Below, piece after piece: positions 24,286 through 28,702 of a stretch of DNA of 64,000 nt. Within the stretch, counting starts at the first letter, position 1. The number at the start of each line of letters is the position of its first letter. The position numbers and the translations under genes were made by a program. The notes below the pieces were generated by a model that saw only the letters and a list, made by a program, of their open reading frames with translations, made no database searches and was not told the origin of the DNA. The stretch is from Pyrodictiaceae archaeon (lineage in GTDB: Archaea; Thermoproteota; Thermoprotei_A; Sulfolobales; Pyrodictiaceae): the NCBI GenBank assembly GCA_027036135.1, contig JALVSY010000007.1:376880-440879 (forward strand), given 5' to 3'.

Positions 24286-24888
24286 TTAGAGCTCTATATT
24301 TGCGTGTTTTGCTCGAAGGTCTTTCTCACTTTTGCCGAGGCGGTGCATGAGCTCTACTGTGACTCCGTCGAGGAAAACCATTGCTGTGTCCTCAAATAGT
24401 GTCCCTAGGGGTGCTAGGGGCTCGTGTATACCGAGTATCTGTCTAGCAAAGTAATCTATATCGGGTGCAAGCTTCGTCCTTCCAGGTATTTCTACAACAA
24501 TGTCTGCTAGCTTGGCTAATGGGCTATCAATATAGCTTGTGATTGCTATTATCTTCGCTTTTACCTTCTTAGCCGCCTCCGCGGCTGTTACTATTAGCTG
24601 TGTGCGGCCCGAGCCAGATATAGCAACAACAACGTCGTTCTCACCTATACTGGGTGTAATAGTTTCACCGAGAACATAGACGTTAAACCCTAGGTGCATA
24701 AGCCTCATTGCAAAAGCTCTTCCAACGAGTCCACTTCTACCAGCACCCATGACAAGGACCTTGCGCCCATTCCTATACGCATCAACAAGAGTGTCAATCA
24801 TGGCTCTTACTTCATCGTCTTTAAGCCTCTCTATTACCTTGTCGATGAATATCACTATTTCCTTCATAGTCTTTTTGACATACTCCAT
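24286..24888 (-). CDS. hxlB: 6-phospho-3-hexuloisomerase (PHI)
   Basis: 200-residue SIS-domain protein. [20 protein letters not shown] and [11 protein letters not shown] are the two phosphosugar-binding loops, and the C-terminal [24 protein letters not shown] ending is typical of PHI. With a hexulose-phosphate synthase it supplies ribulose-5-phosphate from fructose-6-phosphate in archaea lacking the oxidative pentose pathway. No synthase gene lies nearby. ATG 24888. Confidence 0.88.
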
Positions 24889-25099
24889 TAATAGCCCCCC
24901 ACAAGCTCCTCCATCATATGGCTCCCAGTAGTCAATAAATTATTTTCACTGCCAGATGGTAAGACGAGCAATGGTATCTGCGTCAACTTTTTATCCAGTA
25001 GGGATCATCAAGCGATGCAATGGCTATAGCAGTGTGGCACCCCCAAAGAAGCAAGGTACTTGGAGCTCGGAATGAAGGGAAAAGGAAGGGTGGTTAGTT

Positions 25100-28072
25100 A
25101 TTGCTTCGTCACCAGTTACTAGAAAAGAACCCATTAATGAGTACGCAAAATACCTCTTCGAAGTAGCGCAGAAATGGCAAAAGGCCTGGAGAGAAGCAAG
25201 GATACTTGAAGCAGACATAGATGAGACTAGGCCCAAATTCTTCCTAACAGCGGCCTTCCCATACCCTAATAGCCCGCTACACCTTGGACACGGAAGAACA
25301 TATACAATAACTGATGCATACGCCCGCTATCTAAGAATGAAGGGATACAATGTATTATTCCCAATGGGATTCCATTACACTGGCACGCCAATCCTAACAA
25401 TGGCTGAGCAAATAGCCGCTGGAGACCGGGAGCTAATAGACCTCATGATAAATGTTTATGATGTACCGCCAGAGGATATTGAGAAGCTAAAAGACCCGTT
25501 ATCGCTTGCTAGGTACTTCCATAATGATGCAAAAACAGCTATGAGTGAGATGGGTTATAGCATCGATTGGCGAAGAGAGTTCACTACAATAGATCCCGAA
25601 TTTAAGCGCTTCATTATCTGGCAGTTTACGAAGCTTAAGGAAAAAGGCCTACTAACCAAGGGCACTCACCCTGTTGGTTGGTGCCCGCGACACAATATGC
25701 CAGTCGGGATGCATGATACCAAGGGCGATGTTGAGCCAGAGATAGGGGAGTTTACTCTAATACTATTCCAACTAGATGACTCAAGTTACCTACCCGCCGC
25801 AACACTACGCCCGGAGACAGTCTTTGGAGTCACTAATATATGGGTAAACCCGGAGGCAGAGTACGTCTTTGTCGAGATAGATGGCAAGAAATACGTTGTA
25901 AGCAAACGTGCAGCTTTCAAGCTAAGGTTCCAGAGGGATAACGTAAAGGAAGGCAAGATAATTAAAGGAAGCGACTTGATAGGAAAACAAGTACTTAATC
26001 CGGCAACTGGTGAGAAGGTACCGATACTCCCAGCAAAATTCGTTGACCCTGACACGGCTACAGGTGTTGTAATGAGTGTACCTGCTCACGCACCCTACGA
26101 CTACGTAGCTCTTAAGGAGTTACTTGAGAAAAATAAAGAATTGTTAGAAAAACTTGGAATAGACGCAACGAGGCTTTCACCAATTCCCCTCATACGTGTT
26201 CCGGGTTATAGCGAGATACCCGCAAAAGATATCGTTGAGAAGATGGGAGTAAAGAGCCAGCTCGATACAAGACTCCTGGATGAGGCAACTAAGAAGCTCT
26301 ATAGCGATGAATTCAACAAGGGTGTTATGAGGGAAGATATAGTAAATAGAGTGTACCGGGATGTACCTGAACAATATAGGAAGTTTATAGTAGCAGCAAT
26401 AAAGTCGTGGATAGTTGGTCGCTCCGTGAAGGAAGCGAGGGATGCTACAACTAGCTGGTTAAATGCACTCGGCTACGCGGATAAGATGTACGAGATACTC
26501 AATAAGCCTGTCTATTGCCGCTGCGGGACAGAGATAGTAGTAAAGGTGCTAAAGGACCAGTGGTTCATAAACTATGGCGATAAGGAGTGGAAGGCAAAGG
26601 TTCTAGAACTACTAGGCAGCATGAGAATTGTTCCGGAGATAATGAGAGAAGAATTCATCAAGGTAATTGATTGGTTGCATGAACGCGCAGCAGCCCGTAC
26701 AAGGGGCCTCGGTACAGAGCTACCCTGGGCTAAGGGATGGATAATAGAGAGTTTAAGCGATTCAACAATATACATGGCATTCTATACCGTTATACATAAG
26801 ATAAGAGCCTATGATCTCAAGCCCGAGCAACTATCAATAGAGTTCTGGGACTATGTGCTCCTAGGTAGAGGCGATCCAAGGAAAGTATCAAAGGAGACTG
26901 GTATACCACTAGGAATCCTCGAAGAATTGCGCAGAGAATTTGACTACTGGTATCCACTAGACTCAAGACATAGTGGCCGCGACCTAGTACCCAACCATCT
27001 AACATTCTTCCTATTCAACCACGCAGCTATATTTCCGAAGGAGAAGTGGCCTCGGCAAATAGTAGTAAATGGCTTCGTGTTACTAGAAGGAAAGAAGATG
27101 AGCAAGAGCCTACGAAACATAGTGCCGCTAAGGAGAGCACTAAGAGTATATGGTGTCGACACTGTTAGGGCGACTCTCCTAGCAGCTGCGGAGATTCTAC
27201 AAGACGCTAACTTCACAGAGGACCTAGCAAAGAGTGTAATGTCGCAACTAAGGAAAATAGAGGATATAGTGGCTAGAGTCCAAGAAGCTGATACAGAAAC
27301 AAAGCTCATAGATAGATGGTTGCTGAGCAGATTACAGAGCCACATAAACCACGTTAGCAAGTCTTTCGATGAGCTAAGAATCAGGGCTGCGACCATAAGG
27401 GTGCTCTACGAGATGGAGAACGATGCTGAGAAATATCTCGAGATACGCGGGCACCCGGGACCTGCACTTAAGGAATACGTATCCGCGTGGATAAAGATGC
27501 TAACTCCAATAGCGCCTCACTTGGCTGAAGAGCTCTGGCACAAGCTAGGCAATAAGACGTTCGTCTCGCTGGAGCACTGGCCTGTAGCTGATAAGTCTAG
27601 GATAGATGATATCGCGGAACTCACAGTAGCATATATCAACAAAGTGATAGATGATATAAAGTCTATACTACGTGTATACAAGGGTACGGCATCCAAAGCA
27701 TTAATTATAACAGCTAGGCCGAGTGACTGGGTATACGCATCAATAACTGCTTCTATGATTTTAGAGAAGAGGCAGCTCCGTGATATAATACGCGAATTGA
27801 TAGCTAAAGGGGTACCCGGTGCAACAGCAGCTAAACTAGCGAAGAGGCTATATGAACATCTAAGAGGATTAGACGAGGAAGCGTTAAGAAAAATAGCGTC
27901 AGTTAAAGAATTCAATGAAAAGGAGGTTCTTGAAGAATTCAAGGAATATGTAGCAAGAAAGACTGGTATCCGTGAAATAAAAGTCGTTATCGTTGATGAG
28001 GCGCCGTTGAGTGCTCCACGCCAAAAGATAGAAGCGGCAATACCATCACGTCCAGCAATTATCATAGAATAG
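25100..28072 (+). CDS. leuS: Leucyl-tRNA synthetase, apparently with a non-standard start codon
   Basis: Class I synthetase. The HIGH motif appears as HLGHG in FPYPNSPLHLGHGRTYT (~25255-25305), and KMSKS as EGKKMSKSLRN (~27085-27115). The CP1 editing domain and the long archaeal C-terminus are present. The first ATG in frame (25337) lies after the HIGH motif and cannot be the start. The frame is open back to 25076, yet contains no ATG, GTG or TTG before 25337. ATT at 25100, following GGAAGGGTGGT, gives an N-terminus (IASSPVTRKEPINEYAKYL) of normal length. Confidence 0.88.
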   Translation: MASSPVTRKEPINEYAKYLFEVAQKWQKAWREARILEADIDETRPKFFLTAAFPYPNSPLHLGHGRTYTITDAYARYLRMKGYNVLFPMGFHYTGTPILTMAEQIAAGDRELIDLMINVYDVPPEDIEKLKDPLSLARYFHNDAKTAMSEMGYSIDWRREFTTIDPEFKRFIIWQFTKLKEKGLLTKGTHPVGWCPRHNMPVGMHDTKGDVEPEIGEFTLILFQLDDSSYLPAATLRPETVFGVTNIWVNPEAEYVFVEIDGKKYVVSKRAAFKLRFQRDNVKEGKIIKGSDLIGKQVLNPATGEKVPILPAKFVDPDTATGVVMSVPAHAPYDYVALKELLEKNKELLEKLGIDATRLSPIPLIRVPGYSEIPAKDIVEKMGVKSQLDTRLLDEATKKLYSDEFNKGVMREDIVNRVYRDVPEQYRKFIVAAIKSWIVGRSVKEARDATTSWLNALGYADKMYEILNKPVYCRCGTEIVVKVLKDQWFINYGDKEWKAKVLELLGSMRIVPEIMREEFIKVIDWLHERAAARTRGLGTELPWAKGWIIESLSDSTIYMAFYTVIHKIRAYDLKPEQLSIEFWDYVLLGRGDPRKVSKETGIPLGILEELRREFDYWYPLDSRHSGRDLVPNHLTFFLFNHAAIFPKEKWPRQIVVNGFVLLEGKKMSKSLRNIVPLRRALRVYGVDTVRATLLAAAEILQDANFTEDLAKSVMSQLRKIEDIVARVQEADTETKLIDRWLLSRLQSHINHVSKSFDELRIRAATIRVLYEMENDAEKYLEIRGHPGPALKEYVSAWIKMLTPIAPHLAEELWHKLGNKTFVSLEHWPVADKSRIDDIAELTVAYINKVIDDIKSILRVYKGTASKALIITARPSDWVYASITASMILEKRQLRDIIRELIAKGVPGATAAKLAKRLYEHLRGLDEEALRKIASVKEFNEKEVLEEFKEYVARKTGIREIKVVIVDEAPLSAPRQKIEAAIPSRPAIIIE

Positions 28073-28702
28073 CTATAGTTCGTGAATACGTATTTTCTTA
28101 TTCTTAACATCTATATCTATACAGCCTTTTTCTGACAAGCTAGCTATAATCTCCCGTGCCCTAGTTTTTGGTATTCCTAAGTCTATTGATAAAGCCTCAA
28201 TAGCCTCTCTAAGCAGTATTTCACCTAGCCCAAAGTATTTCTTAAGAATTTCAAGAGCAGTTATGTCTTTACAAGGACTAGGAGATCTTATGATATTATA
28301 ATTATTATCTATCGTTACATATTCCCTAAGAGTAGTATTGTTTAAATGAATCAGTAAAAGATATGTGCCCTGAGAAGCTCTTTTAACATCTACTTTTTCT
28401 AATCCACAGCTCCTATAATTTCTTATAATGGTGCCAGCTGCCAGTATGAGCCCCTCTGTGCACGTTCCCGGGCACCATAATAATGCATAGTTATTCTCGT
28501 TGTAGCATTCTTTGCAACTTTTGACTATTTCCTCGTTTAGTACGCTTAAAGCAATTCCTCTTAACGTGTCATAGGCGCAGATGGTAAAGTCCCTGAAAAT
28601 GCTAGCTGCGTACTTGGCAAGAGCTAGCGCTAGTCGTTGAGGAGACTTGGGCATGTATAGCCTGTGTCGCTTATCTAGAACCGAGAGAATCAGTGGTTTC
28701 AT
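28073..28702 (-). CDS. Hypothetical protein with C-terminal winged helix
   Basis: 209 residues. An N-terminal alpha/beta part with several Cys (CKECYNENNY, WCPGTCTEG) is followed by a C-terminal winged helix (ILLREAIEALSIDLGIPKTR, EIIASLSEKGCIDIDVKNKK). The stop codon abuts the leuS stop with no gap. A guide RNA on the same strand lies 33-90 bp before its start. Function unknown. Confidence 0.55.
   Translation of the reverse strand: MKPLILSVLDKRHRLYMPKSPQRLALALAKYAASIFRDFTICAYDTLRGIALSVLNEEIVKSCKECYNENNYALLWCPGTCTEGLILAAGTIIRNYRSCGLEKVDVKRASQGTYLLLIHLNNTTLREYVTIDNNYNIIRSPSPCKDITALEILKKYFGLGEILLREAIEALSIDLGIPKTRAREIIASLSEKGCIDIDVKNKKIRIHEL

Follow-up and report, generated by a model that had tools for sequence, protein, structure and literature searches.

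Apparent translation of a leucyl-tRNA synthetase gene from a conserved AUU codon in the Pyrodictiaceae

A synthetase gene without a conventional start codon

Where does translation begin in a gene that has none of the conventional start codons ahead of its active site? The question is raised by leuS, the gene for leucyl-tRNA synthetase (LeuRS), in a stretch of 64,000 nucleotides (the window; contig C7, 376880-440879) from a genome of the Pyrodictiaceae, heat-loving archaea of the deep sea; the genome measures 2.2 Mb and is 99.6% complete (G000 in what follows; positions given without a contig or L label are those of the window). The leuS frame is closed upstream by a TGA at 25073-25075 and is open from 25076, and, as the first-pass annotation had pointed out, it holds no ATG, GTG or TTG before the HIGH motif, of which HLGH is read at 25280-25291 (+ strand). 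The first such codon in frame is the ATG at 25337-25339 (+), and a start there would delete the motif.

That the gene encodes an archaeal leucyl-tRNA synthetase is established. Taken from the ATT at 25100 to its stop codon (25100-28072, + strand; 990 aa), its full-length product matches TIGR00395 (leuS_arch) at 1027 bits against a curated cut-off of 648.5, also lies above the cut-off of NF008957, and matches PF00133, PF08264 and PF13603 as well as P. horikoshii LeuRS (1wz2/1wkb); the KMSKS motif is found at 27095. It is the single LeuRS of the genome, the runner-up match to the query being the isoleucine enzyme IleRS (2e-23). The normal LeuRS N-terminus that had been claimed for the region ahead of the HIGH motif is indeed encoded there, as the TIGR00395 match runs from residue 21 (counted from the ATT) and residue 9 of P. 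horikoshii LeuRS aligns with residue 22, so that the start of translation must lie upstream of about 25160. Because the neighbouring genes are a divergent SIS-domain-like gene (24286-24888, - strand) and a convergent gene (28073-28702, - strand), leuS heads its own transcript, and there is no co-transcribed upstream gene feeding it ribosomes.

The lack of a canonical codon in one leuS gene is by itself only weakly improbable, the chance of finding none over 87 codons being about 4% at the 3.7% rate of the same coding sequence; the strength of the case lies in its conservation over nine genomes.

A conserved ATT at Shine-Dalgarno distance

The nine assemblies compared represent two Pyrodictiaceae genera, have leuS genes that are 70-100% identical, and include several that are single-contig (G004, G011 and G014 among them). 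Identity to the gene of G000 is 97% in G001, 93% in G002, 80% in G003 and 77% in G004, and 70-74% in the second genus (G011, G014, G005 and G016). All nine leuS 5' ends share, without any indel, the block GGKGRTYAGYT-ATT-GCT-TCR, ahead of which the leader has diverged in both sequence and length. The motif GGTYAGYTATTGCTTC occurs once each in eight genomes of the family and nowhere else among the 20 searched, and was not found in a reversed control; in the ninth genome, G016, GGTGATCAGTTATTGCTTCG stands in its place.

A usable canonical start is missing in all nine genomes, and in eight of them there is none at all upstream: G000-G003 have none before the active site, and G004, G011, G014 and G016 have none upstream of the conserved core. 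Such canonical codons as occur in G004, in G006-type genomes and in those of the second genus are confined to conserved sequence (TTG 19, GTG 6, ATG 31). Only in G005 is there an in-frame ATG, 29 codons upstream of the ATT and part of an upstream ATGG; it would add 29 residues, and to the extent that it could serve instead it counts against a start at the ATT. By contrast, in-frame stops only 3 codons (G016) or 6 codons (G014) before the ATT confine initiation to that spot.

The ATT itself (25100-25102, +), the putative start codon, is present in 9/9 genomes; no other near-cognate codon stands at a column conserved in all of them. A single T-to-G change would convert it to ATG, and this is seen in none of the nine; nor did comparison with these close relatives disclose any indel or substitution that restores a normal start. 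A single codon is used throughout the nine genomes at 41 of 514 invariant residues. Among the 35 invariant isoleucine columns there are 12 with a single codon, which in 11 is the major codon ATA, and in the remaining one, column 1, the minor codon ATT. In relatives belonging to another genus, L009 has ATG at the same alignment column, and L010 and L012 have TTG two codons before it.

Upstream of the ATT, as the first-pass annotation had also recorded, lies a GGAAGGGTGGT sequence. More fully, the Shine-Dalgarno element is GGAAGGGTGGTT (25084-25095, +), with its core GGTG at 25089-25092, 7 nt before the ATT; it is complementary to the 3' end of 16S rRNA, ...GGATCACCTCCT, as found in G004. The reference for spacing was a set of 386 ortholog pairs with canonical starts from 1.2 Mb of G000 and 1.6 Mb of G004. 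Where GGTG lies within 20 nt upstream of a canonical start (n = 152), the commonest distance is 7 nt (39 cases), followed by 8 nt (28), so that the leuS ATT stands at the modal spacing of G000, and the chance of an ATT falling 6-8 nt after GGTG is 1.1%. Codons so placed in both G000 and G004 are ATG in 41 pairs, GTG in 10, CTG in 5, TTG in 5 and ATT in 1, the lone ATT being that of leuS; the equal frequency of CTG and TTG indicates that near-cognate codons are acceptable as starts in this lineage. The second codon of leuS, GCT, and the resulting N-terminus M-A-S would be ordinary.

The missing canonical start, the Shine-Dalgarno sequence with its spacing, and the conservation of both are thus matters of observation, and from them we infer, with a probability of roughly 0.83, that leuS is translated in the cell from AUU at 25100 under the direction of the Shine-Dalgarno sequence, to give a 990-residue product M-ASSPVTRKEPINEYAK.... 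Transcription would start near 25015-25020, after a TATA-like box CTTTTTATC (24987-24995, +; predicted promoter) that reads CTTTTTATCC in G001-G003 and is represented by a T-rich box in the others. The transcript would carry a leader of about 80 nt containing GGAAGGGTGGTT, by which the small subunit and initiator Met-tRNA would be placed on the AUU, 7 nt after GGTG, and initiation there would presumably be with methionine.

Weighing the alternatives

The first-pass annotation had proposed an AUU start, perhaps coupled to a short upstream frame, with a sequencing error near 25090 as the alternative; the AUU start is now strongly supported, by nine genomes, by the modal spacing and by being the sole conserved near-cognate codon, while of the other two suggestions the error is rejected and coupling finds no support. 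For an error of sequencing or assembly that erased a normal start, nothing speaks beyond the oddity itself, and the same sequence is carried by nine assemblies from different projects, several of them single-contig (G004, G011 and G014 included), with 3 to 30% protein divergence, so that this explanation has practically no chance of being right. Much the same is true of the idea that ATG 25337, or another codon downstream, is the true start and that the upstream conservation has some other cause. Although this is the first canonical start, its use would sacrifice the HIGH motif, and the 80 residues upstream of it show protein-level conservation in every LeuRS, the differences between G000 and G004 over this region falling mostly at third positions (13, 11 and 40 at codon positions 1, 2 and 3 respectively).

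Coupling is a more specific proposal. The 25-codon frame (MAIAVWHPQRSKVLGARNEGKRKGG*; 25020-25097, +), which begins at ATG 25020 near the predicted transcription start, does end in G000 right beside the ATT, its TAG finishing at 25097 and leaving 2 nt (25098-25099) between, and the ATGG with which it begins (window 25015-25022) is kept in eight of the nine genomes. However, its length and stop are not kept: the frame ends far upstream of the ATT in G001 and G002, even though their LeuRS sequences are 97% and 93% identical, ends after 5 codons in G003, overlaps the ATT in G004 and is in frame with leuS in G005, and G011 has no ATG. Since the frame stops at a different position in each relative, stop and start do not stay adjacent as coupling would require, and coupling must be considered very improbable. 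A conserved leader RNA was also considered and rejected, since a search of the window against Rfam returned no match but a tRNA and so assigned the leuS leader to no RNA family, its folding is no better than that of shuffled sequences (z +1.2), and it diverges between relatives.

A further possibility is that ribosomes initiate at the GTG within the Shine-Dalgarno sequence (25090-25092, +) and shift by +1 into the LeuRS frame within about 6 codons. This GTG is present in 8/9 genomes, the two changes seen most often (GTT/GTC, AGT/AGC) alter no residue in its frame, and the ValRS, IleRS and P5C reductase genes of the genus have a canonical start solely in a neighbouring -1/+1 frame. On the other hand, the GTG is lost in G005, which has GGGGTC, and a change lies next to it in G016; G004 has no Shine-Dalgarno sequence before it; its frame meets a TAG after 10 codons in G000; and in Zestosphaera that frame is closed by TAA after just two codons, with the ATT still 6 nt after GGTG. 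Neither the conserved start in the neighbouring frame nor the conserved shift site expected of programmed +1 frameshifting was found: the genomes have no slippery site in common, and other lineages share none either. The +1 relation is in any case the arithmetic outcome of a start placed 7 nt after GGTG, and initiation at this GTG seems improbable.

In bacteria, AUU is a weak start codon. In Sulfolobus, aIF1 favours discrimination against non-canonical starts (PMC6237735). This factor is present in G000, which counts against an AUU start at leuS, and discrimination against weak starts should therefore operate; probably the strong Shine-Dalgarno sequence compensates for the weak start. The idea that start choice is relaxed because aIF1 has been lost was rejected, SUI1 being found in 38/39 genomes, G000 among them. 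That AUU has been retained unchanged in two genera, when one T-to-G change would yield AUG, suggests that a modest LeuRS output, or one that can be adjusted, is selected for.

Unusual starts in other genes and lineages

Several other genes of G000 also have unusual starts. The gene for aIF1A (PF01176; C7:820673-821116, +; L123:673-1116) has no usable canonical start, and a CTG at about C7:820777 (CTG GCA AAG AAG AAG) lies 8 nt after GGTG (GGTG...CCCTGGCNAAGAAGAAG); a comparison that permitted ATG, GTG or TTG at this position nonetheless found CTG kept in G000, G001, G002, G004 and G014. CTG starts that are conserved with G004 and lie 6-10 nt past GGTG are seen also in genes for RIO1 kinase (C7:821168-821974, +), MoaA (C7:371531-372628, +), two CBS-domain proteins (C7:838298-839086, -, and C7:351486-352298, +), and LPG_synthase_TM (C7:338730-339665, +), DUF3782 (C7:168659-169390, +) and AAA_14 (C7:684092-685435, -) proteins. 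In the gene for an ARMT1-like protein (C7:616544-617485, +) a well-spaced Shine-Dalgarno sequence precedes a TTG that is out of the protein frame, in both G000 and G004.

In a second set of genes the protein frame offers no start of any obvious kind. The ValRS frame (C7:923349-925811, +; L128:3349-5811) opens at a TAG/TAA right before CCT TCG TCC, and in the three genomes compared (G000, G003 and G004) there is neither a canonical nor a near-cognate codon where the protein begins; GGTGTTARCCTTCGTCC is conserved in all three, with a GTG in the frame that lies one base ahead. In IleRS (C7:627478-630450, -; L113:7478-10450) a canonical start is missing from G000 and G001, as is a near-cognate one at the beginning of the protein, and G004 has a GTG; just after a TATA box a conserved ATG-ACT-ATT-ATT-CGC occupies a neighbouring frame in which changes are silent, so that the pattern looks like a +1 shift. 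In the ProC-like P5C reductase gene (C7:719939-720748, -) a conserved ATGAGTCTTCCAGGG stands in the frame one base before that of the protein, which has no start of its own, in G000 and G004. These three genes may rely on frameshifting, on initiation at a non-cognate codon that follows a Shine-Dalgarno sequence, or on another process, and they cast some doubt on leuS as well: with ValRS and IleRS lacking both a canonical start and a near-cognate codon in its place, another process might act in all three synthetase genes. The comparisons of ValRS, IleRS and aIF1A starts covered no more than two to five genomes.

Outside the two genera there are four lineages in which leuS has no canonical start before its core and GGTG is followed at 6-8 nt by a near-cognate codon: ATT at 7 nt in G048 and G057, ATT at 6 nt in Zestosphaera (L048), where a TAA closes the GTG frame, CTG at 7 nt in G036 and ACG at 8 nt in L047. 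Three further lineages (G006, L050 and L054-L056) also have no canonical start, and have no equally clear alternative; in all three of L054, L055 and L056 (other Thermoprotei MAGs) the sequence is ATGGGGGATC, with an ATG one base out of frame. G009, G049, G039, G032, L069 and L075 are ambiguous, having a well-spaced ATT or ACG with a canonical codon near. With lineages classified by eye and some of them MAGs, near-cognate leuS starts in 4/26 lineages against a background of about 2% in the genus are more than expected (p about 0.002-0.003), which is suggestive of over-representation. A single rule, namely a codon one letter off AUG at the usual Shine-Dalgarno distance, would explain both the nine sequences and those of the other lineages.

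AUU starts as such are already known: infC (IF3) and pcnB of E. coli start at AUU, and that of infC is the basis of IF3 feedback (PMC9410913). The leuS gene appears to be of this kind, a chromosomal gene with no usable AUG, GUG or UUG and with an AUU at Shine-Dalgarno distance in 9/9 orthologs, but it differs in depending on archaeal initiation (aIF1, aIF1A and aIF2, with no IF3), in encoding an aminoacyl-tRNA synthetase, and in that any feedback would be hypothetical. Nearer in lineage is L12ae of Staphylothermus marinus (Smar_1096), likewise an essential gene of a crenarchaeon without a valid start, for which an ATC start was proposed from an alignment; it differs in the codon and in concerning one genome, with no conservation reported in the part of that paper dealing with the gene (PMC2678158). 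Switches from AUG or GUG to AUU or CUG among close prokaryotes were found by Belinky et al. (2017) to be rare, AUG to AUU occurring at 1/61,358 (PMC5622118), whereas the ATT of leuS has persisted through two genera and turns up again in that gene in other families. In the published figures on start codons of P. delaneyi only ATG, GTG and TTG appear (PMC5556600), and no report of an archaeal AUU start for leuS was found in the open-access literature. What is notable here is the unusual conservation and the recurrence of the leuS AUU.

On the practical side, gene finders confined to ATG, GTG and TTG would truncate leuS or miss it altogether, with the loss of 79 residues that include the active-site motif. 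A weak start kept in two genera and paralleled in other families also makes start choice by aIF1, aIF1A and aIF2 testable on a natural gene. It is possible, though on balance doubtful, that leuS in Sulfolobales and Desulfurococcales is restrained by selected near-cognate starts (AUU, CUG, ACG) that answer to initiation-factor levels. We know of no route by which LeuRS could alter start-codon discrimination; a link to the initiation factors themselves is made possible by the conserved CUG at which aIF1A appears to start in the same genomes. If that were true, the CUG of aIF1A and the near-cognate starts of leuS together would be to these archaea what the IF3/AUU feedback loop is to bacteria. 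The restraint on leuS, if regulatory, would give archaea an analogue of a device known from bacterial textbooks.
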